Shown: positions 6,066 through 37,800 of the stretch, piece by piece | Layout of the letters: each line of letters opens with the position of its first letter | Numbering within the stretch: position 1 is the stretch's first letter | DNA from: a virus | Length of the DNA: 43,337 bases | Strand: one strand, 5' to 3' | Virus record (IMG/VR): IMGVR_UViG_3300007509_000014 | Span: 1 to 43,337 of that record | Notes under the pieces: generated by a model | The model's database searches: none | The model's input: the letters and a program-made list of their open reading frames with translations, nothing else | What the model was told of the DNA's origin: nothing | Translations under genes and position numbers: made by a program

Positions 6066-7795
6066 CGTCTAACTCCTTCTGCTGTACTATCAAGTATACC
6101 AGCTTGTGTATACGGAGTCATAAACTCACTTAGCTCTTGCTTTACAACCTGATATTGACTTTGAAGCCATTGGTAATCTGTGGTCAATTTACTGATAATG
6201 GTTGTATAAAGGCTAATCTTTTTTTGTAAATTAGTAGTATACTCTGAAAGATCATCCTGTAATCTCATAGACTCTTTCTGCAATTCAGTAGTATAAATAG
6301 TTGCTTCATTTTGAACTCTAGCAGTTTCTTTGCCTAATAAATTAGTATATGCAGAAACTTGTTGCTGCATTTGAGAAGTTCTAAGTCCTAATTCAGTCGT
6401 AAATATAGTAGCTTCATTCTGTACTCTTGCAGATTCTTTTTGTAGTTCAGCCTGATAAATACTAACATCTGTACCTGTTCTAGAGGATTCCTTCTGTATC
6501 TCAGCACTATATTCTGCTATCTCCGACTGTATACGAGATGTTTCTTTTTGAATTTCATTACTATATATCTGAGCTTCATTCGCAACTCTTTGCATTTCTT
6601 TCTGTAATTGATCCGAATGTCTTTGACTATCTGCCTGTATTCTTGACGTTTCCTTTTGAATTTCAGATGTGTATTTAGTAACAGTTGCATCAAATTGTTG
6701 CACTTCCTTACTAATCCCAGCTTGAAATTCTGCTAACCACCCAGAAGCTCTTTGCAATTCTTGTGCAGCGGTTTGAATAGTAGCCTGAGCCATTTCTTCG
6801 TCTTCATCAGCTAACCAATATCCAGCACTTTGAGCAGTTGCATCATCCCCACTTCCGCTTGCTTCGTCCGTAGCAATACCGACACTTATAAGGTCTTTTA
6901 CTTTCCCTATTGCATCACCATGCTCAGAGTCGAGAGTAGTAGATATAGTAAGACTTGGTACGTTTTGAGTGAAACTAAAATCACTAGGAGGAGATATCGA
7001 GTTCATATCGATAGCCGTTGGCAGACTACTTGCTATAGTAAAATCACTAGGTAACCCTTTTGTAATACTTATCCCACTTGGTAAAGACTTAGTAATACTT
7101 ATTGCACTAGGTAAATCAGCAGAAACTGAAATAGCAGACGGCAATGCAGTCGATCCCATATTAATAGCCGAAGGTAAGCTACTAGAAACATTTAACGTAC
7201 TTGAATAATCAGCTAGAGCATCAAATACTGTAGTATCCGCATCTAGATCGGTAGGAAGCTTAGCGTTTAAAGAGGCCATCTTGTGGTGTAATAACTGAAC
7301 TGCAGCATATAAAACTACCGCATGATACATCTCAGATGGAAAATTATCTATCGCACTATCTGTACCAGCAACTGAAGTATCTGGTAATACCATACTTATC
7401 TTAGCTGTTTGACTTGCAGTAGGTGTCGGTAAAACAGTTAACACTGCATTATTAATGTAATAAACTGGAGAATTAACACTCGCATAATAGAGACTATCTG
7501 AGTTAGCCGCATTACTTCTAAAAGCTGAATTTATTGGACTACATTTCAAGTCTTCCCCACTACTATCCGCACTTGTTCTCACAACATCTATAATCTTAGC
7601 ATTAGTAGCCAATGTTAAGGTGGGAGAACTATTATTTAAAGTCTGTAATGACGCAAACAATGGTAGCATATCAGGATTAGTCTTCTCTAACATAGAAATA
7701 ACCCACTGTACACCATTCGCTAAGAACTTTGATATAGCATTTGGATACGCATCAGTCTCACCAGCGTAATTACCTATTTCAGCATTAAATGCCAT
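6062..7795 (-). CDS. Adaptor-like virion protein with repeat region and long coiled coil (577 aa)
   Basis: This 577-residue protein has three parts. Residues 1 to about 190 resemble a head-tail adaptor (AKIIDVVR, SDSLYYASVNSPVYYI, VLPTP, NFPSEMYHAVVLYAAVQLL). Residues about 205-290 hold at least seven short repeats of the form LPSAISI/LPSGISI/LPSDFTI spaced 9-10 residues apart. Residues about 345-550 form a long coiled coil built from roughly 20-22-residue repeats such as 'YxxELQKESxRxQNEATI'. The protein may link the portal to tail fibres, with the repeats acting as a rod. It ends with TTGA overlapping the next gene. The combination of adaptor head and coiled-coil rod is unusual. Confidence 0.65.
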   Translation of the reverse strand: MAFNAEIGNYAGETDAYPNAISKFLANGVQWVISMLEKTNPDMLPLFASLQTLNNSSPTLTLATNAKIIDVVRTSADSSGEDLKCSPINSAFRSNAANSDSLYYASVNSPVYYINNAVLTVLPTPTASQTAKISMVLPDTSVAGTDSAIDNFPSEMYHAVVLYAAVQLLHHKMASLNAKLPTDLDADTTVFDALADYSSTLNVSSSLPSAINMGSTALPSAISVSADLPSAISITKSLPSGISITKGLPSDFTIASSLPTAIDMNSISPPSDFSFTQNVPSLTISTTLDSEHGDAIGKVKDLISVGIATDEASGSGDDATAQSAGYWLADEDEEMAQATIQTAAQELQRASGWLAEFQAGISKEVQQFDATVTKYTSEIQKETSRIQADSQRHSDQLQKEMQRVANEAQIYSNEIQKETSRIQSEIAEYSAEIQKESSRTGTDVSIYQAELQKESARVQNEATIFTTELGLRTSQMQQQVSAYTNLLGKETARVQNEATIYTTELQKESMRLQDDLSEYTTNLQKKISLYTTIISKLTTDYQWLQSQYQVVKQELSEFMTPYTQAGILDSTAEGVRR

Positions 7796-20605: not shown

Positions 20606-20803
20606 ATGAGCTTATCAGTATTTGAATGTTTAATCTTTGTATCTGGCATAGTTGTCGGATTAGTTGTCTCAATGGTATTTTACCATTGTTCATTAAAAAG
20701 ATTTAAACAACAATTATATAAGTTAAAAGGTCAAGTGTACTATTGGTCAAGACAGATACCAGTAGCTAAAAAACGCGGAAGACCTAGAAAAAAATCTGTT
20801 TAA
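20606..20803 (+). CDS. Membrane protein with AT-hook tail (65 aa)
   Basis: This 65-residue protein combines one membrane segment (residues about 5-27, SVFECLIFVSGIVVGLVVSM) with a basic stretch and a C-terminal AT-hook, KKRGRPRKK (residues 55-63). AT-hooks insert GRP into the minor groove of A/T-rich DNA. With the N-terminus in the inner membrane, the tail would face the cytoplasm and could tether the A/T-rich phage genome to the membrane. GAAGGAG precedes the ATG. It lies 28 bases before the Ubl gene. The tethering role is inference from the two motifs. Confidence 0.75.
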   Translation: MSLSVFECLIFVSGIVVGLVVSMVFYHCSLKRFKQQLYKLKGQVYYWSRQIPVAKKRGRPRKKSV

Positions 20804-20831: not shown

Positions 20832-21041
20832 ATGGCTAATGTAACAGTCGTATCATACCACAACGGAGGTATGCCCAGGGATATGGAAGGTTCAACACCT
20901 GCTGAGCTAGCTCAACAGTTGGACATTTCACTCCAAGGGGTGTCAATACATGTAGAACGTAGTGAGGCTAAAGCCAACCAACAGCTTGCCGATGGTCAAT
21001 TTGTATCTTTTCAAAAGAGCAAAGTTGCATCAGGTAAGTAG
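20832..21041 (+). CDS. Ubiquitin-like beta-grasp protein (ThiS/MoaD-like, BilA-position)
   Basis: This 69-residue protein follows the beta-grasp order: strand NVTVVSYHNGG, strand MPRDMEG, helix STPAELAQQLDIS (residues 21-33), strand GVSIHVERSE, then 'QLADGQFVSFQKSKVASGK' (51-69). The last part matches the ThiS ending 'L.DGD.I.LF....GG'. Instead of a terminal Gly-Gly it ends Ser-Gly-Lys, so removal of Lys69 would be needed to expose Gly68 for adenylation. It is the first gene of a Ubl-E2-JAB-E1 run and has a strong ribosome site (GGAGGATAAA). It is GC-richer than the E2 gene (29 of 60 in 20881-20940), hinting at high expression. The fold is inferred from pattern. Confidence 0.8.
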   Translation: MANVTVVSYHNGGMPRDMEGSTPAELAQQLDISLQGVSIHVERSEAKANQQLADGQFVSFQKSKVASGK

Positions 21042-21188
21042 ACTACCGTCTGCATAAAAGAGAAGTGAATAGCATTATTGCTATTTTATGGTCTATCAAT
21101 TTCTGACTTAATTCTTTAGAAATTAAAAGTTTACCAGCTTTTCTTACTTTAACTAAATCAATTAAATTAAACAATAATAGGAGTTACC
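21042..21188 (+). promoter_or_regulatory. Spacer with two hairpins between Ubl and E2 genes
   Basis: This 147-base gap holds AATAGCA (21068-21074) paired with TGCTATT (21079-21085) over a four-base loop and followed by TT, and AATTTCT (21098-21104) paired with AGAAATT (21118-21124). The first could be a weak terminator that would make the Ubl more abundant than its enzymes, as expected for a modifier. Confidence 0.4.
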
Positions 21189-22934
21189 ATGACGTGGGTA
21201 ATTAATAAAACCTTTCCTGATAAGTTGGGTGAAGTAGTAGACTGCAAGGGATTACCATTTGATGTTAATGCTGCAGCTTATGATAATAGATTAAAAAAGA
21301 TTTTTACGAAAATTTTTACTCTATTTGAAGGTCAGATAGATACGTATTGGAATACATTAAAGAAAATGATATCAAATCCTAATGATACATTTGGATTAGT
21401 ATGCATAGATGGATTTCTTAGAGATATGTCTGGTAGTAATGATATTGCATTAATATTTAATATGGGAATACCTAGATTAAGAGGAAAAACAATATATCAT
21501 TTAGATAGAATATATCTTAGATTACCAATAAATGGAGATATAAGATTTTACAATTCTTATCTAGATGATGAAGAGCAATACTATGATATGACTCATAAGG
21601 GAGCAGTAGCATGGCATCCGCATATCCAAAATACCTATCCTTGTTTAGGTGGTTATGGTAATGAATTAACAAGATGGAGATCAGAAGGAAATCCAATTAT
21701 GTATTTAAATGTTATTTATCAATTTTTAAATACATGGAATCGTAATTCACCATTTTGGGATTTGAATCATAAGCAAATAGATCATCTTACACCTGGAGGT
21801 AAAAATTTTAAACAATCTGTAATAGATTGTGCACTTTATTCAAAGGAATTGAGTACTAATAGATTTAATATAAAATTTATATTAAATAATATTGATAAAA
21901 TTAGTACAAAATCATTAAAAAATGATGCACATCTAATTGCGATAATATTAAGAAGATTAATTTCTCAGCAAAGATTGATAGTGAATAAAGTAGAAGATTT
22001 ATTAAATGAATCAGACCAAAACTATTATTATTTGAAAAATATAGTTCAAGAATCTGATGATTATGATGATTCTTCTTATTCAGAAACAAGATGGAGAAAT
22101 TTCTCTATAATAAATGATAATTCAAATAACACTCAAATAATGATCCCTGTTTTTAGACAAAAAAGAACAACAAGAGACATTCATAGATTGAATACAAGTA
22201 AAATAACAAATAATGAAAATTATAGATTATCTAAAAGAGTACTACTTGGTTTAGAAAAACTAATGATTTTCTTATATAGATATGTAAATGATGGAGATAT
22301 TTACAAAATAATATATGAAAATTCTGATTATCCTATCAGATTATATGCTCAATATGTTTTTCCACTACTATCAAAACAAAATAAATTCTATGATAAAATG
22401 ACAAATACCAATTTGTATAAACATAGAGTTGGACATTATACAAATGAAGACGAATCTATTAACAATGAATTAAGTTCTGAAAAAAGTAAAGTTTTTAATT
22501 CATATCAAAATAGATTAATAAGAGTAAATAGAATGATAACTAAATATTATCAAAATATGTTTACATCTGAATTTGTTAATGATCATATAGATAATGTAGT
22601 GAATAAAGCATTTAAATATGAAACTGCAGAGTATGTAAATCATGAAGGACTTACAGTAAAAAGAATAGAAGATAAGGGACAATTTTGGAAATTATTAAAT
22701 GTGTGGGATATAGATGACCTCGGAGAAATAGAATCTATATTTAACAAAAAATTTCCAAGTTCTTTAATTGAGTTAATAAAGTTATATGAAAATATTAAGA
22801 TAGATATGATTAATAAAGAATCTGATTTCTTAATAGAAGAATATAGCACAGTCATAAGGAGTTTAAAACAATATGGCAACGAAACTAATAATACCAAAGA
22901 AGATTCACAACAAGTACACTTATCTTTTGAATAG
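21189..22934 (+). CDS. Large E2-like ubiquitin-conjugating protein (BilB-position)
   Basis: At 581 residues this is much larger than a normal E2 (about 150). Residues about 65-195 carry the E2 pattern: beta strands (NDIALIFNMGI; LDRIYLRLPI), then AWHPHIQNTYPCLGGYG with His143-Pro-His145 and probable catalytic Cys152, then a helix (IMYLNVIYQFLNTWN) ending in an NSP motif. Classical E2s have HPN...G.ICL and then a helical end, so HPH...PCLG fits a prokaryotic E2-like family. The remaining 380 residues are helical, A/T-rich in codons and unrecognised; they may select targets. It is followed, with a 62-base overlap, by the JAB gene. The E2 call is motif-based. Confidence 0.65.
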   Translation: MTWVINKTFPDKLGEVVDCKGLPFDVNAAAYDNRLKKIFTKIFTLFEGQIDTYWNTLKKMISNPNDTFGLVCIDGFLRDMSGSNDIALIFNMGIPRLRGKTIYHLDRIYLRLPINGDIRFYNSYLDDEEQYYDMTHKGAVAWHPHIQNTYPCLGGYGNELTRWRSEGNPIMYLNVIYQFLNTWNRNSPFWDLNHKQIDHLTPGGKNFKQSVIDCALYSKELSTNRFNIKFILNNIDKISTKSLKNDAHLIAIILRRLISQQRLIVNKVEDLLNESDQNYYYLKNIVQESDDYDDSSYSETRWRNFSIINDNSNNTQIMIPVFRQKRTTRDIHRLNTSKITNNENYRLSKRVLLGLEKLMIFLYRYVNDGDIYKIIYENSDYPIRLYAQYVFPLLSKQNKFYDKMTNTNLYKHRVGHYTNEDESINNELSSEKSKVFNSYQNRLIRVNRMITKYYQNMFTSEFVNDHIDNVVNKAFKYETAEYVNHEGLTVKRIEDKGQFWKLLNVWDIDDLGEIESIFNKKFPSSLIELIKLYENIKIDMINKESDFLIEEYSTVIRSLKQYGNETNNTKEDSQQVHLSFE

Positions 22935-23733
22935 ATTTAAGAGCTTTGAGTGGTCTGGCCCTGCATGGTATAAGGTCAAAACAGATAAAGATGGTTTTCC
23001 TGAAGAATGGAAAATTGTTCATTTCCACCCATTAGATTTAGGCAGTCATGCTGCTACTGAGTGGGAAGCTAAAGACTTAGCTAAAATTCTGAAAAGGACT
23101 TATGCTGATATGCCAAGTTTGAAGAAAACTTACATGGGTTTAATACATAGTCATAATACTATGGGAGCATTTCTATCTGGAACAGATATAGACACAATCC
23201 AAGAGATGGCACCTGACGAAGGATTCTACGGCAGCTTGGTGGTCGCCAGTGCTGGCAAAGCTTTGCATGCTTTTGGATTTGGTTATAAAGATCAGTATAA
23301 ATGTGCTCATTCAATAGAAATTGATGAGGAGAATATAAAAATTAATATTCCTGAATTTAAACCAGATGATGAATGGGTTGCTATAGCTGATAAAATCGAA
23401 AAAGATAAACCACAGGTTAAGCCTGGTAATCAAGTGCAATTATGGAATCGTGGTAGATTGCAAACAGTACCAAGTGTTGATAGTATTGCTACTACTAAAG
23501 CCAAGAAAGAACTTGTAGATAAGAGAACTGCTATATTAGATAAATTAACTTCTAAAAAAAGAGAAGTAGCTCTACATATTTTATTACAGAATGAAACAGC
23601 AGTAATGACTGATATAGCAGCTGAAGATGCTCTACAGGAACTTGGAATTAGCTTAATGGATGTATTAACTCTTATGGATGATGGATATAATTACGGATAT
23701 GGATATGGAGGTGCATATAATGGCTACTACTAG
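22873..23733 (+). CDS. JAB/JAMM metalloprotease (deubiquitinase-like, BilC-position)
   Basis: This 286-residue protein contains an intact JAMM zinc site: upstream Glu26 in FEWSGPAWYKV, then His92-Ser-His94, seven residues, Ser102 and Asp105 (IHSHNTMGAFLSGTDID). In the family, two His and the Asp bind zinc, and the Glu polarises water to cut the bond after a ubiquitin-like C-terminal Gly. It could mature the Ubl precursor (...SGK) and remove it from targets. Residues about 150-260 are charged and helical. The end is Gly/Tyr-rich (YNYGYGYGGAYNGYY), and its codons contain the ribosome site of the E1 gene. It overlaps the genes on both sides. Confidence 0.9.
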   Translation: MATKLIIPKKIHNKYTYLLNRFKSFEWSGPAWYKVKTDKDGFPEEWKIVHFHPLDLGSHAATEWEAKDLAKILKRTYADMPSLKKTYMGLIHSHNTMGAFLSGTDIDTIQEMAPDEGFYGSLVVASAGKALHAFGFGYKDQYKCAHSIEIDEENIKINIPEFKPDDEWVAIADKIEKDKPQVKPGNQVQLWNRGRLQTVPSVDSIATTKAKKELVDKRTAILDKLTSKKREVALHILLQNETAVMTDIAAEDALQELGISLMDVLTLMDDGYNYGYGYGGAYNGYY

Positions 23734-24385
23734 ATTCTTAAGAAATAAAGATTTAATACCTCAAAGTAAATTAGATCATATAGGTTTAGTCGGATTAGGA
23801 GGTATCGGTTCACAGCTGGTACCTCTCTTATCCATAATGGGATGGAAGAAAATAGTAGGTTGGGATCATGATACATTAGAAGAACATAATCTGAGTACTA
23901 CAATGTTTCCTCAGGGAGCATTGGGTAAATCAAAAGCTGAAGTAGCTAAGAATGTTTCTAATATGTATTCTGTTAAGCCTGGAAATAATAATTTCTATAG
24001 AGAATATTATGATGAGGCTAGTCCTACACTACCGAAGATGATTACTTGTCTTGATAATATGGAAGGAAGACTTTTAGCTTACAATAAATGGTTAGAGCAA
24101 AGTAATAGACAATTCTTTATTGATTTAAGAATGGGAGCTATGGCTATGGAAATCATTGTAGCTACAAAAGAAAATGACAATTATTTAGACACTTGGTTGC
24201 CTTCGCATGAAATAAGTGAAGAACCCTGTACAATGAAACATACAATCTTTACAGCTTCTATAGTTGGAGGCTTTGGTGTAGATCAGGTTTTCAATATAGT
24301 TGCAAAAAGACCGTATTATTCGTATATTTGGATAGGCTTAATGCCGCTCGAAATGCGAACTGATAATCTCATTATAACACATTAG
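23720..24385 (+). CDS. E1-like adenylating enzyme, ThiF family (BilD-position)
   Basis: I chose ATG 23720 because GGAGGTG lies six bases upstream; an in-frame ATG at 23678 has no such site. The 221-residue protein has the ThiF/MoeB/E1 nucleotide-binding motif GLGGIGS (residues 25-31), Asp49, the 'EEHNLSTTMF' and 'LGKSKAEVA' motifs (Lys70), LDNMEGR (111-117) and 'FIDLRMGAMAMEI'. Cys170 in EEPCTMKHTIFTA is the probable thioester cysteine. It would adenylate the Ubl C-terminus and pass it to the E2-like protein. There is no zinc CxxC pair, as in several prokaryotic E1s. It lies twelve bases before the Sak4-like gene. Confidence 0.9.
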   Translation: MATTRFLRNKDLIPQSKLDHIGLVGLGGIGSQLVPLLSIMGWKKIVGWDHDTLEEHNLSTTMFPQGALGKSKAEVAKNVSNMYSVKPGNNNFYREYYDEASPTLPKMITCLDNMEGRLLAYNKWLEQSNRQFFIDLRMGAMAMEIIVATKENDNYLDTWLPSHEISEEPCTMKHTIFTASIVGGFGVDQVFNIVAKRPYYSYIWIGLMPLEMRTDNLIITH

Positions 24386-24397
24386 ATAAGGATAGTC

Positions 24398-25258
24398 ATG
24401 GTTATACAAGTAAGAAAAGTATCCACTGACTGGACAACATTGCCCACTGGGTTGACTTGGTATTTTATCGGTCAACCCAAAACGGGTAAAACCACACAAG
24501 CCAGTAAATGGAGTCCCAATGGAGCCGAGGGATGTCTATTAATTGATACTGATTTAGGCTCAGATTTTGTTGAGGGAGCAAATACAGTTACCGTTACCTC
24601 ATTGAATACACCAATAAGACCTAAAATGATTGATAATAAGCAAGTTACAGAAAAAGGCAATCCTGTTACAGAAGTAGTGCCTAATGACGAACGTGGTTAT
24701 TATAATCGAACTGGAGAAATTGGTGAACCAATGGAAGTATATTCTATGGTAGAAGTATACTATTGGTTAAAGGATAATTTGAAAAAGTTACCTTATGATA
24801 CTATTGCTATTGATACTATTGATCATATAAATAGATGGATTGAAGCTGAAGTATGTGATGAAAGAGGTCAAGCAGCAATGGGTGAAGGTTCTTCTTGGGG
24901 TGCTGATTGGGCACAAGCAAGAAAAAAGAATCTTGATATTGTAAAAAAGTTTCAAACATTGTGTAAATCATTAGGGAGAAATCTTGTTTTGATTTCACAT
25001 GCGAAAAGTACCGTCATAACTGATGGTAAAAGTCAGTTAGGGCCAGAGCTACCACGAGGTTTAGCTTATGCTTTAACTGCGAGTGCGGACGTGATAGGGT
25101 ACGCTATGGCTAATAAAGAAGATGGAAAATTCTATCTATCTTTTAAAGCATATGATGAAAGAACTGTAGGCAGCAGGCTAAAGCCCTTAGCCCAGAAAGT
25201 TCTTGAATTTGATTACGATAGCGTAATTAATGAAATACTAAAATACAAAGAAGAATAG
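24398..25258 (+). CDS. RecA-like ATPase, Sak4-type single-strand annealing/recombination protein
   Basis: This 286-residue protein is a minimal RecA-fold ATPase: Walker A GQPKTGKT (residues 25-32) after the strand TWYFI, an acidic strand LLIDTD, Walker B YDTIAIDTID (about 128-137) and a later strand NLVLISHAKS. This matches the phage Sak4 family, which promotes single-strand annealing and works with a phage ssDNA-binding protein. The next gene fits that partner. An AAGGATAGTC ribosome site precedes the ATG. A replicative helicase loader is a less likely alternative. Confidence 0.85.
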   Translation: MVIQVRKVSTDWTTLPTGLTWYFIGQPKTGKTTQASKWSPNGAEGCLLIDTDLGSDFVEGANTVTVTSLNTPIRPKMIDNKQVTEKGNPVTEVVPNDERGYYNRTGEIGEPMEVYSMVEVYYWLKDNLKKLPYDTIAIDTIDHINRWIEAEVCDERGQAAMGEGSSWGADWAQARKKNLDIVKKFQTLCKSLGRNLVLISHAKSTVITDGKSQLGPELPRGLAYALTASADVIGYAMANKEDGKFYLSFKAYDERTVGSRLKPLAQKVLEFDYDSVINEILKYKEE

Positions 25259-25267
25259 GAGTAGCAT

Positions 25268-25903
25268 ATGCCGTTCAGAGGTTCTTACGAACAAAGCTCA
25301 AAAGACATGAATATTGCACCATTTCTTGGTTTCCAAGAAGTTGCATTAACAGATGTCGTAGATAAATCAGATGATTATCCAAATATGGATGTATTTTTAG
25401 AAATACATTTTAGAAATGGAAATTCACAGTATCCTTGGAAATATAATCTTATAGGTTCATTTGATAAAGATACTGATGGAACTGTATCTGGTAGTAGCAG
25501 TTTATTAAAAAGAATCTTGTATTTTACAGATGCTATTGGTTGGGCTGGCGGAGTTAATACCAAGGGTAACTGGGTAGATGAGGATGATAAAATTGTCGAT
25601 GATATCGCAGGATTATTAAATCTTCATTATACTTCAGCTAACTATGGTATAGATGATTCTGACACTGAACATAAGTATTACATATTTACTTATAAAAAGT
25701 GGAATGAAAAAGCTGGAAAAGCATACACAAATGTATGTCCCAAAATTGTATTAAATGACGAAAGAGGTCGCAATGATCTTGATAGTTATATAAAATACAT
25801 GAAAGCTAATAAATTCATTGTAGAGCACGATGACACTAAAACACCTGTTTCTAATGGGAATATGACTAGTACCACTACTAGTAATTCTCGTAACATGTTT
25901 TAA
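25268..25903 (+). CDS. Putative ssDNA-binding protein paired with Sak4
   Basis: This 211-residue protein starts MPFRGSYEQSSKDMNIAPFL and has a beta-rich middle (MDVFLEIHFRNGNSQYPWKY; HKYYIFTYKKWNEKAGKAYT). The tail is low in complexity and Ser/Thr/Asn-rich (SNGNMTSTTTSNSRNMF) and ends in Phe. Phage ssDNA-binding proteins next to Sak4-type ATPases have this layout, though their tails are usually acidic, which this one is not. A GGAGTAGCAT ribosome site precedes the ATG. The role is inferred mainly from gene order. Confidence 0.55.
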   Translation: MPFRGSYEQSSKDMNIAPFLGFQEVALTDVVDKSDDYPNMDVFLEIHFRNGNSQYPWKYNLIGSFDKDTDGTVSGSSSLLKRILYFTDAIGWAGGVNTKGNWVDEDDKIVDDIAGLLNLHYTSANYGIDDSDTEHKYYIFTYKKWNEKAGKAYTNVCPKIVLNDERGRNDLDSYIKYMKANKFIVEHDDTKTPVSNGNMTSTTTSNSRNMF

Positions 25904-27736
25904 GTGCAACTTTATCACGAAGTAGCAATAGGGAGTCCTCGTAATAGGGGACTCCTTATTTCTCCAGATGAAATTATTGATGTTATATTAGAACATGGTG
26001 ATAAATATGCCGTTTATAAAAGTCTATATTTATATGATAATGAAGGAAGACAGTATCACAAACTTAGAAAAAGTTTTAAAGATTTTCTAGGCAAAAGATA
26101 CATAAAAGATGTATTAATTGATATAGACAGAGCCGATAATACCGATAATTATACACTTAATAAAACAAAAGGTGTATTATTTGAATTAGAGGAATTAGGC
26201 GTACAAAAACGATCATATAATGTCTATTTTAGTGGAACTGGATATCATATTATAATAAGTGGAGAAGTTTTCAATTTTCCTCAAGGAGATACAGACTTAC
26301 CATTTATTGTAAAAGAAACTATGAACAATTTATTCAGTGACATAGACTTATCAGTATATAATAGAACATCAATATATAGGTGTGAAAATACTTTAAATCA
26401 AAAATCAAATCTTTACAAAATTCCATTAACTCATAATCAAGTTCAAGAATCTGATGCAGAAAGTATATTATTAGATTCTTCAAAACAGATTATACTTGAT
26501 TCTGATCCTATTTGGGGAGATGGTGAATTAGAGAAATACTTAATCAAAGAAGTTCCCAAAATAAGAGTAATGGATTCTAATGTAGAACCGCGTAATATAG
26601 TACCCTGTGTTCAAAAGATGTATAAACTTGGCCCAGAAGAAGGATCAAGAAATAATACTTTGATGCGAATAGCATCCCATTTCTTTAGACATGGTATACC
26701 AAGTGAAGCTGCAAAGGCTTCATTGCTGCATTGGAATAATGATCAGTTAAGAAATGATGTAATAATAAGAAAAGTAGAAGACACCTATCGTGGTGGATAC
26801 AAGTATGGATGTAAAGATGTCTTAATGGCTAAGCATTGTCAAACAAATTGTATCTACTATAGAAGAAAGGATTATCTGATTGATGTAAAAAATAGTGAAG
26901 AGTTACAATCAGAGCTAGCAGAAAGACTTGAAACTGATTTTTCTGGTAGAACAATTGACTTAGCTCAGATTCTTGGAGTACATAACAAAGATGCTACTAT
27001 CTATCCAGGGGAATTAGTAACTATATTTGGATCAACAGGTGCAAATAAAACTGCATTAGCTCAAAATATAGTATTGGGATACAATGCTGAGTATGATCAG
27101 ATAATTAAAGAAAAACAAATACCAACATTATTCTTATCATTAGAGCTTTCTGGATTTGTAATGCACAGAAGGAATTTACAAATTGTAGCAGGTGCAAGTA
27201 AGGATACTGTAATGAGTAATTACAAAAATCTATATGATTACCATAAAGAAGAATTGAGTCATATAATTATGCAATCAATTAGCCCCACAATACCTCAAAT
27301 ACAAGACAAAATAAAACAATTGCAACCTAAATGTGTCGTAATTGACTATATTGACCTTGTAGATGTACCTTTCAATAAAAGAGGAGAGTATGAAAAACTT
27401 AATTATATAAGTCACTCTCTATCAAATATAGCTGTAAATGAAGATATCATTATCATACAGATTTCTCAAGTCTCTAGAGACTATTCAAGAAATCAAATAA
27501 TGGATTTATATGCAGCAAAAGGAAGTGGTGCAATAGAAAATGCCTCAAGGAAAGTAATTGGAATTACAGGCTCTGCTGAAGAAACGGAGAAACAAGTATC
27601 TTTATATAAGAACAGTGATGGCGACCTCTTTGATGTCAAGCTTGAATGGACACCATCATTTAGATTAAAGAGAAAATTTCCCCAAGTAATAGAGAGTAAA
27701 GTGATGAGTAGAAAATTCACTATATTGGAGGAATAA
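25904..27736 (+). CDS. AEP-type primase fused to DnaB-like helicase
   Basis: This 610-residue protein has an archaeo-eukaryotic primase domain: DVLIDIDR with Asp73/Asp75, the SGTGYH motif (Ser110 to His115) and the third motif around Asp146-Ile-Asp148, followed by 'YNRTSIYRCENTLNQKSNLY'. A Cys cluster follows (GCKDVLMAKHCQTNC). The C-terminal RecA-like helicase has Walker A GSTGANKT (376-383) and Walker B 'CVVIDYIDLVD'. The usual second Gly of Walker A is Asn381. It starts with GTG directly after the previous stop and has no ribosome site, so translation is probably coupled. A hairpin of GGAGTCC with GGACTCC lies just after the start. No DNA polymerase is present, so host polymerase would be used. 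Confidence 0.85.
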   Translation: MQLYHEVAIGSPRNRGLLISPDEIIDVILEHGDKYAVYKSLYLYDNEGRQYHKLRKSFKDFLGKRYIKDVLIDIDRADNTDNYTLNKTKGVLFELEELGVQKRSYNVYFSGTGYHIIISGEVFNFPQGDTDLPFIVKETMNNLFSDIDLSVYNRTSIYRCENTLNQKSNLYKIPLTHNQVQESDAESILLDSSKQIILDSDPIWGDGELEKYLIKEVPKIRVMDSNVEPRNIVPCVQKMYKLGPEEGSRNNTLMRIASHFFRHGIPSEAAKASLLHWNNDQLRNDVIIRKVEDTYRGGYKYGCKDVLMAKHCQTNCIYYRRKDYLIDVKNSEELQSELAERLETDFSGRTIDLAQILGVHNKDATIYPGELVTIFGSTGANKTALAQNIVLGYNAEYDQIIKEKQIPTLFLSLELSGFVMHRRNLQIVAGASKDTVMSNYKNLYDYHKEELSHIIMQSISPTIPQIQDKIKQLQPKCVVIDYIDLVDVPFNKRGEYEKLNYISHSLSNIAVNEDIIIIQISQVSRDYSRNQIMDLYAAKGSGAIENASRKVIGITGSAEETEKQVSLYKNSDGDLFDVKLEWTPSFRLKRKFPQVIESKVMSRKFTILEE

Positions 27737-30423: not shown

Positions 30424-31830
30424 ATCTTTATAAGTTCTATCTTTACTTTTATGATAATCTATAAAAGCTCCACTAGCTAAGACAAGTAAAGCAGCCACAC
30501 TCAGGCCTCCAAGACCCATAGCAGCATGTCTCATAAGCCAAAAAGGACTAATCATTTTTCTTTGCAATATTTTCTGCTTTAAATACCCACCATGTTTTTT
30601 TAGTAACTCATCTATTTTAACAGCATCATTTTTATTAATTCCAGGAAACTTATCACTTGTAACTAGTTTTTGCAAATTTTCTTTTTTTGGATATTTTTTT
30701 ATGATCTGTTTTACAGCGTTTTTTTTATTTTCAACAGGTAAGTCATCTTGAATATTTGTTACTATTTCAGGAATACTTATTTCTCTAGGAGCCGCTATAT
30801 TTAAAACGTTTCTTCCGCCAAGCTTCATCCCAAATAAATCTCTTTTATCATTAGCATAAAATTTTACTTTCGTAGGATTTTTTTCATTCCATTCAACAAT
30901 ACCCTGATAACCTCCCCAGTCATAATTAGGTTTTATACCTGGAGAAACCTTAAAAAATATTCTTTCTTCACCTTTTTTACCAAAAGATTTCCATGTTCTT
31001 AAATTACTACCTTTAGCGAAAGCAACTTTAACTTTATTAGCGTTTAGATTTTCCAAACCTTCTTTGTTAAGTCTGACAAACGTATTATAAACGGGCTTAT
31101 CAAATTGTATACCTCTCATTACATCTCCAATTTTAGCCCCCTGCTTATGCTGTAAAAACTTAATTTTGTTTAAATCTTTCATGCCAGGCTGGCTTTCTGT
31201 CATATATTTGGCTATCTCTTCATTACCTCCTAAGCTAACTAAAGCTTTCCTTTTGCTAACTGGTTCGACCCATTGCTTAGCATATCTGGCAACATCGTCT
31301 ATTGCTGGAGGATTTTTTCTATGTAAATATCTATTTGAATAATCATTTATAAGTTTATAATGTTGCTGTCTTTGATTATTGGCAAGAGTTCTCCTAGCTT
31401 CTCTAAATTTTGTTTCAGCTTCTGGACTTTTATATCTGTACTTACCTTCAGAATCTAACTCTATTTGCCTACCCATTCTTTCTTGTAAATTAACATTTTC
31501 ATCTTGCAATTTTAACAATTGATTATAACCCCTAGTAGACATCCCAGTTCTTTTGTAGGCATAGGATGTTCTTGGGTCAACGATATCTCTCATAATAGGC
31601 AAAGCATTAGCCGCTACTTCCCTACCAGTTGCTATGACTTGATTACCCCTTCCACCACCATAAAATCCTCTTAGAAAATTATATGGATACTGAGCCAATC
31701 TTGATCTATTATCTCCAGTCATCATCATGATACCAGCACTACCAGCAGCTGTTAATGCTAATTCTTTATGGTACTCCTCAAGTAAGGCTCGCATATCAAT
31801 CTGCTTATCTTCTGGGACATAAAAAGACAT
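30400..31830 (-). CDS. Putative internal virion/ejection protein with C-terminal membrane segment (476 aa)
   Basis: This 476-residue basic protein is the last gene of the ejection-protein block, directly after the giant protein (TAATG overlap). It is mostly helical and charged, with one hydrophobic segment near the C-terminus (about 440-462, MGLGGLSVAALLVLASGAFI) and weaker ones near the N-terminus (LALTAAGSAGIMMM). Podovirus ejection proteins leave the capsid with the DNA and insert in host membranes, which these segments would allow. The tail HKSKDRTYKDRGEQGNY resembles the end of the 375-aa protein (SQSQKDKKQPKSRWK) in layout. The role is from context. Confidence 0.6.
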   Translation of the reverse strand: MSFYVPEDKQIDMRALLEEYHKELALTAAGSAGIMMMTGDNRSRLAQYPYNFLRGFYGGGRGNQVIATGREVAANALPIMRDIVDPRTSYAYKRTGMSTRGYNQLLKLQDENVNLQERMGRQIELDSEGKYRYKSPEAETKFREARRTLANNQRQQHYKLINDYSNRYLHRKNPPAIDDVARYAKQWVEPVSKRKALVSLGGNEEIAKYMTESQPGMKDLNKIKFLQHKQGAKIGDVMRGIQFDKPVYNTFVRLNKEGLENLNANKVKVAFAKGSNLRTWKSFGKKGEERIFFKVSPGIKPNYDWGGYQGIVEWNEKNPTKVKFYANDKRDLFGMKLGGRNVLNIAAPREISIPEIVTNIQDDLPVENKKNAVKQIIKKYPKKENLQKLVTSDKFPGINKNDAVKIDELLKKHGGYLKQKILQRKMISPFWLMRHAAMGLGGLSVAALLVLASGAFIDYHKSKDRTYKDRGEQGNY

Positions 31831-34800
31831 TATATAATTCTTGGCCTTAAATAATCTGTATCATCTTGATACTTCTTAACTTGTCTGGAAAACTGTTGGT
31901 AAGGTAATCCAGTAGCTTTTTCTATTGATCTACTTGGGTTTTCTATTAAACCACCCTTTCCACCTTCAAATACATTCCCAAATACATCATATCCCATTCT
32001 TCCAAATGGAATCATACTCCACGCATAATATCCACCAAGCCTACTCCAATCATCATTCACCATAGCTCTAAAGGTAGCTGGTACCAATCTTAACGCAGGA
32101 GGTGTAATTAATTGAAGAGGAGCAAGGGCTGTAGGATAAGTACCGAAAAAAGCTCTACTCCTCTCCTTCTCATTCCCAAATGCCCAATCAGCCATATCCT
32201 GTAACCATCCATAGGGTTGTGGCAAAGCATTCTCGAATAATGAATACATAAAGACATTCCCCAACCCGAACATGAGCAAGTCCATAGTAGCCATCCGTTT
32301 AAATTTTTCAAATTCTGGAGTCCCCTGCTTCCAACCTCTTAAAGAAGCCTCCCTAATAACATCGTTTCTAAATCTTACTGAGTTCCAAGCCCATAATTGA
32401 AACCTAGTCATAGCCTTACCCATAGCAGACCTTGCAAAAGCTGGTCTAAAAGGAGCTGAATATAAAAATTGTGTCGATTTTACACCTTCCATGCCAAGCT
32501 TGATAAGCACTGGGTCATCAAATTGCTTTATAGCACCTTCAAAATTGCGTCTACCCTGTAGATAATGGGCCATGAAAGCGTCTCTACGGAGAGTTCTCTC
32601 AGGTCTGCGCATAAACCATGCAGCTTTATTAAATACAGAGTCTATAATACCGTGCTTATTAGCGATATTCCTTAAATTCTTATCTGATAAGTTTGGGTCT
32701 TTTTTTATAGCTGACGTAGCCTCGGACAAGAAGCTTTTAAATCTAGCTCCTTTAAACTTAGGATTAAGTCCAGCTTCATAAATAATAAAATCTTCCACGA
32801 CACCCAATCCTTGAACCCACTTCTCAACATCAGCCATATTTTTCCATTCAGGATTAACATTTGTCCTTAAGAAGTTTATATCTCTAGCGTTCTTAAAGTT
32901 ACCAAATCCAGTTGATATAAGAGTATGGACACTACCACCATATAGGTTAGCAGCAGCACTCTTAGGATGAGCCAATAGGGTGGCTAACTGATACTTGGCC
33001 TCAAGATTCCCCCATCTTGCTAAATTACCAAAATCAATTCCCTTTAACTCTTCTGGGACTCCAGCATCTTTCTTTTTGCCTATGCCAAGCTTACTTCTAA
33101 TACTGTTAACTCTATTCTTAACATTTGTGTCGTTCCACCATGCATAAGGAGTTCCCTTTATTTTCATATCAGGATTATTTAAAATTCTTTCTGGTAATTG
33201 CTGCGGATAACCCAAAGCATCTTGAGCGTACAAATTAAAAAAGTCTACCCAATCATTGGTAAGCTTAGAATCTCCATGTTTTTTAAAGTGTTCAGACTGA
33301 AATTTATGTATATCTGATCTAACCTTAATTTGAGCAGCATGTTGATACATGTTATCAATTACACTTTTCATATATTGAGTATAGACTTCAGGTTCTACAC
33401 TCCAGCCAGGAATATGCGCATCACGTTTATGCTGAGCTCCCACCATTCTATTCTCAGCAAATCCTTTTATTCTTTCGGAAGCTTTACCATTCTTTGCAGC
33501 AATATCCTTTAAAACCTCAAAAGACAAGTTATACTTATCATTTAATTCACCAGTAGGTATCCAATCCCCAGTAATCTGTCTATAATGATAGATAAGCTTA
33601 GCCATTTCCTTACTGCGTTCTTTTTCTGATAGCCTAGTCTCTTTGTTCAGAATCTCTATAGCTTCTCTCAGACCTTTTGCGGCTATCTTAGCATCCCCAG
33701 CAATATGAGGCCAATAACCTTCAGCTCCTAAATCTCCAGTTCTTCCTATCAAAAGATTTTCTTGTATCTGCTTCTTGACATCCTCTCTAGCCTTAGGGAA
33801 ATAAGATATCATTTGACTTTTAGCAATCTCTCTAAGTCCATCAATCCCCTCAGTTAGGTCTACACGCTTACCTTTTAATATGGCTTTATCAAATTTCTTT
33901 AAAAAGTTTTCAACGATATAATAATCAGCAGAAAAACCTTTTTGCTTAGACCTCATTGGCTCATATTGTCTATCCCACTCACTCACACCAAATTCATCTC
34001 TACCCCCAGTCATCCAACCGTGAATCTTGGCGTTCCATCCAGTAATAATTTCATTAATTTTATTAACTATTTCACGACCAGACATTTTTACAACTCTACC
34101 ACCGCCTAACGTGACATCAAACTCCTGTTTCTGAAGCTCAGCCCAATTATATTCCTTTTGTATATTATTCCACTGATCTATATACTCTTTTGATTTTATA
34201 TTATAAGCAGAAGAGCCTTCTTTTTCTCTAATCCTTTTAGGCATAGTTCTAAACTCACGCTCTCTTACAGCTATTCTAAATAGCTTATCACCGCCTACTA
34301 CACCTTCGAGATAAGGTCTAATATCATGGTCAAACTGTCTTTTATTTTCCTCATATAGCTGAGTAGCCTGTTGATTCATAGTATGCACAGCACTTTGCAT
34401 TTTAGTCATCATATTCTCAGGCTGTTTTATGGCACCAGTAGCCCATTCACCAGCTTTATTTTTATAAGGAGCCCTAGCATCAAAAAGAGCTAAATCATAC
34501 CTCATTAAATCTTGGCCTATAGCTTTTGGAAACATTAGCCAATGCCATCCAGTAATCTTAGCTGCCTTATCCCTTACTGGTCTCATAACTCTTTGCCACC
34601 ATGTCCCCTCTCTTGTCATATTAAACCATCTATTGAGTGTATGGAAATCTTCAAGTGACGCAGCATTTAAATCTTTTTTGACAAGCCATCTCATTAAACC
34701 ATTGAGATCAACACTATTCACATTATTATAGTGATCTAGATGACCTTTAATACTTAGAGCTAATTCAGCTTCTTCTTTGCCAAGCTTACCCTCATTAAGG

Positions 34801-37800
34801 CCTATAAACGGCTCATATTCGTCCAATCTCTTCCTAGTTAGGGCACTAGCCTCAGGGTCTTCTACAACGACCTTCTCGGCCTTTTTAGACACCTCTACAG
34901 CTCTTTCTGGCTTAATTACCTCTATACTTGTATCGAATAGCTTTTGATACTCATTTAACATACCCTTAACCGAAGCATCTGGTATAGCCTCAGACGCATA
35001 GCCTACTTTTGATAGGCTTGTTTTCTTAGAATCTTGAATCATAGATTCAAATTCCTTTTTCACGGCATCTGTTCTCGGCTCACCGTATTTCTTAATAAAT
35101 GCACTTCTATCAAATTCGGTACCTCTCCACAATGTACCAAGCATCATAGCATCGAATAAATTTGATTCTTCAGAAGATAAGTTCTTTTTATAATTTTTAA
35201 TTCTGACATCAATACTTGCCTGATTTAAAGCACCAGATTGTTTTTCACCATATATTTGTTGTTGAGCAGCCTCAAGATAAGCTAGCTCTATGGGGTCTAA
35301 TGTAGAATTAGTGCGATCTATTTTTCTTGACTGATTAGCTAAAACATAGCTATTTTTCTTTAAGTAATCAGCAGCTTCGCCAAGTTCTCGTATTCTTGTT
35401 GGAGAAATGTTCTTAGAGAGTTCTGCTATTCTTTTAATACTAGCTATATCGGAGAAATCATTAACAATAAAGTCTTCAGCCTTTTTAACAATATCATTGA
35501 GATATCTCGATCTTTGTTCCAAATTATCTGGATCAAACTTCTCACGCTTATTCTTATTGTAAAAAGAAAATTTTTCACCAGATAAGAGCTTGCGATGATA
35601 AGATGGGTTGTTGGGGTCTAATTGAACTTCCATACCCTCCTTCTCAAAAAGCTTATATTTTAAAACTAAATCTAAATACGGACTCCTAGGCACAGCCATT
35701 GAATCTCTGCCTAACAGCTTCTTTAAAGAGTCTAGTCCCTTTAGATTAGACTCATGACTTTTGTATATTTCAGTAACCTTATCGTAATCAACACGCTTTA
35801 GAATGCCATCACTCCAATCAAGTCCTCTTAAATCATTAGCTATCTTAGGTAAGAATGTATTCCTATACTTTGGCAGTATTCCAACTTTAGTATCATTAAT
35901 CAAATCAAGCTTTTGCTGTATCTCCCACATATTAAATCTTCTATTTTCAGCCCAATTTCTACTATATATAGCTTGATTAATATTTTTCATAAGATTGATC
36001 ACAGCTTCCTTTTTATGCCCAGAGTGTATTACTTTATTTAATCTGGGTATAGGCTTACCGTTTTTATCTACAATCATATATTCAAATAGAGCATTCGTCT
36101 GCTTCTCAAGGAGTTTTTCACCATACTTACCGAAATTTAATCCAGCCTCATCCATCGGATCAGATGCTAACCCAACAGCAGCTCTAGAAACTCCTCTAAA
36201 TGAACGAAGATTATCCTCCCCCTTTTTAGCACGAACCCTTAGCCTAAGAGGATATTTAAAATCTTTATGGTGTATAGTAGTGTAGTAAGTACCATTATCC
36301 ATTGCTCTTATAGAAGAATACGCAGATTTAACATAAGCTGTTTGAGTAACTGCAGTACCCAGCTGACCCCTGCCTTGAGAAGCTGCATCTGAAGCTATTT
36401 GGCGAGCTACGGGAGAATATTGAAGTGCTGGATTAGCTACTTTTTCCTTAACATCACCCTGGGTGGTTAACTCAGTTCTATAGGTCTCACCTTTTTTGCT
36501 AAGCGGGTTGATTGTTTCTTTGTTATGTTCTTCAAAACCATTCTTAACAAACTCATTCCTAGACCAATCATAGGAATCTTTCCATTCCTTTTTAAACCCT
36601 GCTCCTCTACCATCGGACGATTTTCCCCCAAAAAATACAAATGCTTTATCACCATCGAGGTCAGCACCACCCAATGCTTCCATTGTCCTTCCGTGCAATA
36701 AAGAACCAAATCCTCTTACTCCAGAGAATCCAGCAAACTTTAATACATGAGCACCCGACATGGAATCCATAGGTACACGGACTACAACTGCTCTAAATAG
36801 TTCTTCTAATTGCTTGTCCTTTTTGCCACCATCAATATATTCTTTCCAGAGCTCCTCCAATGGCCTTTTCCCCTTTTTGCCAAGCCCAGATACATCAACT
36901 TGCATCTTTTTAAAGCCATCATCTAGGAAAAATATATCATCTTCTTTTTCTAATCTTTTTGTCTCTCCCTCTTTAGACATGCCTATCTCATATGGTCTCA
37001 TTCTCGTAGAACCGCTATTCCCAATTTGAGGTCTAGTTATACCACTTACAATGTAATTTCGTATAACCGACATTCTATAATCACGACTAAATTTATGCAA
37101 GTGCCCAGCTAAGCTATTTGGCATAAGAGATATAATTCTTTCATGAACAGTTTCAAAGTCAGACATTTCATTCCGAATCTGTTCTATCTGCTTATCTGTA
37201 TATTCTCCGTCAGCTCTCATCTCCTCTATAATATCTCTATTAATTTTTTGTATCTTAGAGTATACTGCGTTAGCAAATTTTTCGTTACCCTTAGCCTGTA
37301 CAGCTGTAAGAAGTTCGTGTACTCCTACTTTATCAAGATTACTAAGAACTTTAGGAATATCTTTCTCGTAAGCAGATGGATTTAGCTCTATTTTCTTGAC
37401 CAGTTCATTTATCTCAGCATCCCCCTTTACTCTCTCACCGCTAAGACTAGAATACATATCGTCAATTATCCTACCCATCTCCTTATTATACTCGGCCTCT
37501 GTCTTAAAAGGAGCCTTTGCAGGGTCAAAGAAAGAATATGGACTAAAATTAGTAAACATTTGTTTGGGCATATGCTGTGGTTCAATACTGTGGGAATCTG
37601 TCTTTTCAGACATAATAACTTTTATATCTCTAATTGGGAGATCATAAGTATCAGCTATGACCCTCGGATTGTTTCTGTACCAATCTAATTTGCCTACTTT
37701 ACGCTCACCAATTTGCTTAGCGGCTGATCTAGGTATAATTAAATGGATATTATTCTTTTGCATGTACTTTTCCATCTTAGGAGTGACGGAATGTATCATA

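Follow-up and report, generated by a model that had tools for sequence, protein, structure and literature searches.

The window analysed here, a virus record of 43,337 bases with 36% GC (IMGVR_UViG_3300007509_000014), carries at 20832-24385 four plus-strand genes, overlapping or closely spaced, which encode a ubiquitin-like protein (Ubl), an E2-like protein, a JAB/JAMM metalloprotease and an E1-like adenylyltransferase. With a probability of roughly 0.7, this cassette constitutes a complete phage pathway for ATP-dependent Ubl conjugation and deconjugation and is part of the core early/replication module. The proposal is supported by the invariance of the E1 cysteine, of the E2 cysteine, glycine and second histidine and of the JAMM residues amid wide divergence. 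This marine phage and its distant crAss-like gut cousins have both conserved the four-gene set beside DNA replication genes. The cassette and its active sites are laid out as follows.

20832..21041, plus strand: Ubl, 69 aa, single-domain beta-grasp modifier with a ThiS/MoaD-like fold (structure model, fold comparison, family profile)
21030..21035, plus strand: Ser67-Gly68, invariant, closing the Ubl domain; a single residue, K69, comes after it
21189..22934, plus strand: E2-like protein, 581 aa, with a UBC/UEV-like N-terminal part (about 22-213) and a helical, fast-evolving C-terminal region
21615..21623, plus strand: HPH (143-145), at the position of the E2 HPN motif; histidines conserved in relatives
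21642..21644, plus strand: Cys152, predicted E2 catalytic cysteine, in C-x-G; invariant in relatives
22873..23733, plus strand: JAB/JAMM metalloprotease, 286 aa, with a conserved core (about 1-150) and a variable Gly/Tyr-rich tail (Prok-JAB, JAMM residues)
23146..23187, plus strand: JAMM stretch HSHNTMGAFLSGTD (H92-D105); H, H, S and D invariant
23678..24385, plus strand: E1-like ThiF adenylyltransferase, 235 aa, or 221 aa if translation begins at the likelier ATG, 23720 (ThiF E=6.7e-12)
23792..23812, plus strand: GLGGIGS, nucleotide-binding; Gly residues in 134/134
24227..24229, plus strand: predicted E1 thioester cysteine, motif EEPCTMKHT; Cys in 139/139

Protein families and catalytic residues

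The E1-like protein matches Pfam ThiF over residues 34-139, in agreement with the original prediction, which had pointed to the GLGGIGS stretch and a candidate catalytic Cys170. This cysteine is Cys184 when counted from 23678 and Cys170 when counted from the ATG at 23720, which is the likelier start because homology begins there. The JAB protein matches Prok-JAB at E=9e-4, below Pfam's cut-off; the complete JAMM set claimed for it is present (E26, H92, H94, S102 and D105), and the E, H, H, S and D are invariant among relatives (130-133 of 130-133).

Scans of Pfam, NCBIfam and PADLOC with the single Ubl sequence yielded no match that gives an assignment. An AlphaFold2 (AF2) model built from a 42-sequence alignment is a beta-grasp fold (predicted local distance difference test, pLDDT, 86), its nearest solved folds are TtuB (Z 9.0, root-mean-square deviation [rmsd] 2.0, 63 aligned residues) and MoaD (Z 8.6, rmsd 1.8, 64 aligned), and the family profile matches ThiS 2cu3 (E=8.6e-4), all of which bears out the ThiS/MoaD-like fold first proposed for this 69-aa protein. 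A helix-turn-helix or sigma identity, raised by weak matches, was rejected since the model is a beta-grasp and these matches fall on its single helix. Ser-Gly is kept in 104 of 104 aligned Ubls; among 139 Ubls, it is followed by no residue in 3, by 1-3 residues in 51, by 4-25 in 11 and by more than 25 in 74. Because residues follow Ser-Gly in 136 of the 139, nearly all Ubls would need trimming before activation, and this removable tail would provide JAB with a substrate; Ser67-Gly68 is the predicted point of JAB cleavage and E1 activation. In crAss-like Ubls (e.g., L034 1250-1927), the extension after Ser-Gly repeats the pattern ...IK..GL......FGKNFTQ.....L and resembles a small helical domain, which, once freed by JAB, could have a function of its own.

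No E2 member matches an entry in the Pfam, NCBIfam or PADLOC scans. Within the family, the cysteine (117/117), the glycine and the second histidine (116/116 each) and the first histidine (107/116) are kept while little else is conserved, such that HPH, C152 and G154 persist among proteins otherwise 14-46% identical. The eukaryotic E2 motif reads H-P-N-I-x(6)-C, and the phage spacing, H-P-H-I-x(5)-C, is close to it. In the AF2 model of the window protein (pLDDT 88, predicted template modelling score 0.83), the N-terminal part matches only the TSG101 UEV domain and UbcH5c (Z 4.6-4.9, rmsd 3.8-4.5, 114-127 residues), the low Z arising because the whole 581-residue model was searched; its succession of a helix, strands, an active-site loop bearing HPH and Cys, and further helices agrees with that of an E2. 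For the helical C-terminal region no clear fold match emerged, and a BFVD search with the model returned only unnamed viral proteins (best E=3.8e-7). The earlier E2 claim is sustained by the motif and, with modest Z scores, by the N-terminal model.

Additionally, neither tblastn with the window E2 against a phage collection (50,697 records) nor a pattern scan using E2 alone produced a match; the E2s of crAss-like and Flavobacterium phages were recognised through synteny and motif. When the window-type and crAss/Flavobacterium profiles are aligned, the active sites fall in register (E=8.6e-4, at a probability of just 23.5%). A C-terminal tail of the E2, TxQVxLSFE (22885-22934 in the window), overlaps the JAB start and is conserved although most of the C-terminal region diverges; it may be either a binding motif or a constraint imposed by the overlap.

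All cassette genes are under purifying selection, and the pace of change differs among and within them. Between the window and locus L001, identity is 78% for Ubl, 46% for E2, 83% for JAB and 93% for E1, and 96% and 88% for the neighbouring Sak4 and helicase proteins. Within E2, the active-site part is 65% identical and residues 190-340 only 25%; within JAB, the core reaches 93% and the tail 72%. Likewise, E2 residues 190-340 are 25-35% identical between phages whose E1s are 92-93% identical, and the Ubls of L001 and L003 are identical while their E2s share just 50%. A target-binding part exposed to changing pressure would be expected to diverge as residues 190-340 do, and we read the C-terminal region of E2, together with the JAB tail, as the surface facing a target or antagonist, with the chemistry held fixed.

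Introns mark the same active sites. Group I introns (Rfam, E about 1e-14 to 1e-15) lie at the JAMM HSH of JAB in L049 (5178-5390) and L050 (4582-4841), another in L064 (3222-3453) splits E2 at its HSH codons, and comparable inserts interrupt JAB in L059 and L100, the crAss-like intron sites being at or within 5 codons of the JAMM motif. Group I introns favour highly conserved sites in conserved genes, and because they settle there, these insertions independently support the importance of both HSH motifs. The two HSH sites may share an intron target. The inserts of L050, L059, L064 and L100 also carry open reading frames (ORFs) resembling homing endonucleases.

Synteny, distribution and genomic setting

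Of the confirmed loci from two profile scans (240 in one, 400 in the other), the best 80 per scan were kept, and a search with cassette hidden Markov models covered 187 records. In these, Ubl-E2-JAB-E1 occurs on one strand and in one order at 130 loci (101 distinct after duplicate removal), which, together with the confirmed ORFs of the window, substantiates the four consecutive genes originally described. None of the remaining loci breaks the order: some run off the end of a contig, some are interrupted by introns, inserts or a frameshift, and in others the gene at the E2 position escaped detection. The E2 split in L071 looks like a frameshift, the intact version being found in L069. Because the same genes recur in the same order and on the same strand at so many loci, chance is excluded as the source of the cassette. 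E2-JAB and JAB-E1 overlap (medians -67 and -9 bases), a layout of translational coupling, and E1 relatives in viral contigs all stand in the same gene order.

A nucleotide search of the phage collection gave no match. By tblastn against isolated phages, E1s about 30% identical were detected in Flavobacterium psychrophilum phages and crAss001-type phages, where E1 is preceded, in order, by genes for a Ubl extended at its C-terminus, an H-S-H...C-x-G protein of 394-444 aa and a JAMM protein. In crAss001-type Crassvirales and Flavobacterium phages, the annotation of the parts goes no further than 'thiamine biosynthesis protein', 'metalloprotease' or 'hypothetical'. In the phage collection, E1 and E2 each match exactly 74 records, with equal organism counts. 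Among 84,980 bacterial and archaeal species genomes, scanned with tight patterns that distant cellular relatives may escape, there is one confirmed locus, on a phage-like 3.7-kb contig; the E1 encoded there shares 57% identity with a crAss-like E1.

A search anchored on the primase-helicase found E1 in every marine locus with enough upstream sequence, and the whole cassette where more upstream sequence was present. All marine relatives whose upstream sequence is long enough thus carry the cassette, which makes it a core gene set. L230, a helicase locus that lacks it, was rejected as an exception, being a contig-end chimera. In that contig, helicase homology starts abruptly at codon 15, around 7001-7040, and continues to the contig end, as in a chimeric contig or at a recombination point.

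The surroundings of the cassette agree with its description as part of a phage early operon just before the replication genes. Directly upstream and downstream in the window are the following genes.

20606..20803, plus strand: small protein with a membrane segment, an invariant YYW and a basic RGRP-like tail (12 aligned relatives)
24398..27736, plus strand: replication/recombination genes for a Sak4-like protein, a putative single-stranded DNA-binding (SSB)-like protein (211 aa, unassigned) and a primase-helicase (phrog_124, E=9e-26; phrog_19, E=3.5e-29)

The gene for the Sak4-like annealing protein begins about 12 bases or less 3' of the cassette and is followed by those for the 211-aa protein, which sits in the usual SSB place, and the primase-helicase. 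In crAss-like phages, the cassette neighbours are genes for a primase, a uracil-DNA glycosylase, a resolvase and an exonuclease. In 64 crAss-like or Flavobacterium-type loci, E1 is followed within 60 bases by the start of a fifth conserved gene (e.g., L034 5660-6472, corresponding to crAss001 gp75), which was not detected in the marine clade; its product is a possible substrate or target adaptor. The 65-aa protein at 20606-20803 has an AT-hook-like tail and is always encoded directly upstream of Ubl in the marine clade; it is possibly a substrate or partner of the cassette. The early block occupies the plus strand of the window, and the minus strand holds the terminase, portal, major head protein and tail fibre genes. 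A minus-strand ORF of 2823 aa (31830-40301) has no PHROG match and is flanked by other unassigned minus-strand genes; no tRNA genes were found in the window.

Comparison with known Ubl systems

One point of comparison is the Bil operon, a bacterial defensive system that shares with the phage cassette the order Ubl-E2-deubiquitinase-E1 and the four activities (PMC11354881). BilA has two Ubl domains, BilD two adenylation domains (one inactive, one active) plus a Cys domain, and BilB a CEHH motif in which His follows the Cys (PMC11354881). In contrast, the phage Ubl is one 69-aa domain instead of two in tandem, the phage E1 is a single ThiF domain of 221-235 aa without the second adenylation domain, and the invariant histidines of the phage E2 precede the Cys, none being conserved after it. 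The PADLOC models of BilA, BilB and BilC match none of the cassette proteins, and that of BilD matches E1 over a 63-residue Rossmann stretch only (E=2.8e-3). Judged by these sequence features, the cassette is not a Bil operon: the parallel drawn in the original prediction holds for gene order and is not supported for kinship.

Nor is this order specific to Bil, because the PRTRC plasmid system (type 6d of Iyer et al. 2006; C=Ubl, B=E2, A=JAB, ThiF=E1) is likewise arranged Ubl...E2-JAB-E1, with similar gene sizes (Ubl 69 aa, E1 about 230-290 aa) and in a mobile-element setting with ParB. By hhalign, the phage E1 and PRTRC ThiF align over 190 columns (98.6%, 6.3e-16) with the catalytic Cys in register, and the JAMM cores of phage JAB and PRTRC A align as well. 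PRTRC B has C-x-G around its Cys as does the phage E2, but in place of HxH it has an Asn, 8 residues ahead of the Cys; hhalign of the two places the motif alone in register (E=0.08), and profile comparison detected no homology between the PRTRC E2 and Ubl and those of the phage. The phage E1 also scores far below the curated PRTRC_ThiF cut-off (27.6 versus 144.75 bits), and neither ParB nor PRTRC E or F is present, as annotated, in the window or the flanks of its relatives. On these comparisons, the PRTRC E1 is the nearest non-phage relative found. The phage E1 profile further matches the adenylation core of Citrobacter BubCD (E=7e-6), which is one chain of 458 aa (identified by its PDB name), whereas the phage E1 and JAB are encoded by separate genes.

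Within phages, the lambda/T1 tail-assembly proteins TAPI and TAPK combine a Ubl with a conserved C-terminal Gly and a JAB peptidase (PMC1779556). No E1 or E2 has been described for this pair, which belongs to the tail module and has its JAB joined to NlpC/P60, whereas the window has a full cascade in a replication module. Iyer et al. (2006) placed phage Ubl and JAB in tail modules only, and type 6d in bacteria and plasmids (PMC1779556). Further parallels are crAss001 gp79-gp76 and Flavobacterium phage Fpv3, which have the same four genes in order with conserved catalytic residues and differ from the window in the long C-terminal extension of the Ubl and in an E2 with HSH, not HPH. The crAss001 and crAss-like genome papers do not mention ThiF or ubiquitin, and JAB and metalloprotease were likewise absent in the respective searches. 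In the literature searched, no description of a complete phage-encoded Ubl cascade was found, and other papers could contain one.

Proposed pathway and its targets

In the proposed pathway, JAB would cut the Ubl precursor after Ser-Gly, taking off 1-2 residues in the marine phages or about 100-200 in the crAss-like ones, and E1 would adenylate the freed Gly with ATP and accept Ubl as a thioester on Cys170. Ubl would then move to Cys152 of E2, where HPH replaces HPN, and E2, with no E3 in the cassette, would bind the target through its fast-evolving helical C-terminal region and attach Ubl to it, after which JAB could take Ubl off again.

Several points weigh against this pathway. The E2 fold match is modest, sequence-profile comparison finds no link from this protein to known E2 families, the Asn of HPN is missing and the Ubl C-terminus is Ser-Gly, not Gly-Gly. 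Additionally, relaxed constraint could be the cause of the fast evolution of the E2 C-terminal region. Cleavage, thioesters, transfer and the isopeptide bond are steps that we infer, and any target named is a guess.

The leading guess, at slightly under even odds, is a host protein altered early in infection, a choice favoured by the rapid change in the C-terminal part of E2 and in the tail of JAB. Alternatively, Ubl could go onto the phage's own replication, scaffold or tail proteins and time replication or assembly. A phage target of this kind is less likely: the cassette is fixed in its clade and always lies by replication genes, also in the crAss-like phages, and the fifth gene right after E1 could encode such a substrate, but the adjoining Sak4 and helicase have diverged far less quickly than the C-terminal part of E2, which is unexpected for a conserved phage target, and the genes flanking the cassette vary by lineage.

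It is improbable that the phage Ubl and JAB serve instead to oppose host Bil, Bub or type II CBASS, e.g., by stripping conjugates or occupying enzymes. JAB does belong to a deconjugase family and, together with the E2 region, has a fast-evolving part, but this leaves unexplained why a complete E1 and E2 are retained with invariant catalytic cysteines, and why the cassette is fixed whereas host Ubl-based systems are sporadic. A sulfur-carrier role, in which Ubl and E1 make a thiocarboxylate for the thiolation of tRNA, cofactors or nucleotides and JAB acts as a processing peptidase, would account for the closest Ubl folds, TtuB and MoaD being sulfur carriers, and for the single-domain E1, which is like ThiF/MoeB. 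This role is equally improbable given the constant co-occurrence of the E2-like protein, the absence of rhodanese, cysteine desulfurase and thiolase families from the scanned proteins of the window, and the window E1, whose mere two cysteines cannot form the zinc-binding CxxC pairs of ThiF/MoeB-type enzymes in cofactor pathways. Least probable is a Bil-like tool for superinfection exclusion, which would mark the structural proteins of competing phages. The order and activities of BilABCD speak for it (PMC11354881); against it stand the missing Bil hallmarks and profile matches, the core rather than accessory status in an early operon and the fact that no sign of lysogeny was noticed in these phages; as an accessory trait, the exclusion role suggested at first fits poorly with a cassette fixed in its clade.

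Bacterial Ubl conjugation is known as an anti-phage weapon, and phages have so far, in the literature searched, been credited only with pieces of the pathway, isolated Ubl and JAB tail genes. A full cascade fixed in phage replication modules reverses this picture, in that viruses may themselves be exploiting this chemistry for infection. The chances are evenly balanced that such a cascade, with a previously unrecognised E2 family, belongs to the ancestral core set of several phage lineages, including crAss001-type gut Crassvirales, and routinely tags host or own proteins. As crAss001 grows on cultured Bacteroides, this is directly testable, and the apparently new E2 family and the Ubl precursors with long cleavable tails bear on the evolution of the ubiquitin pathway.

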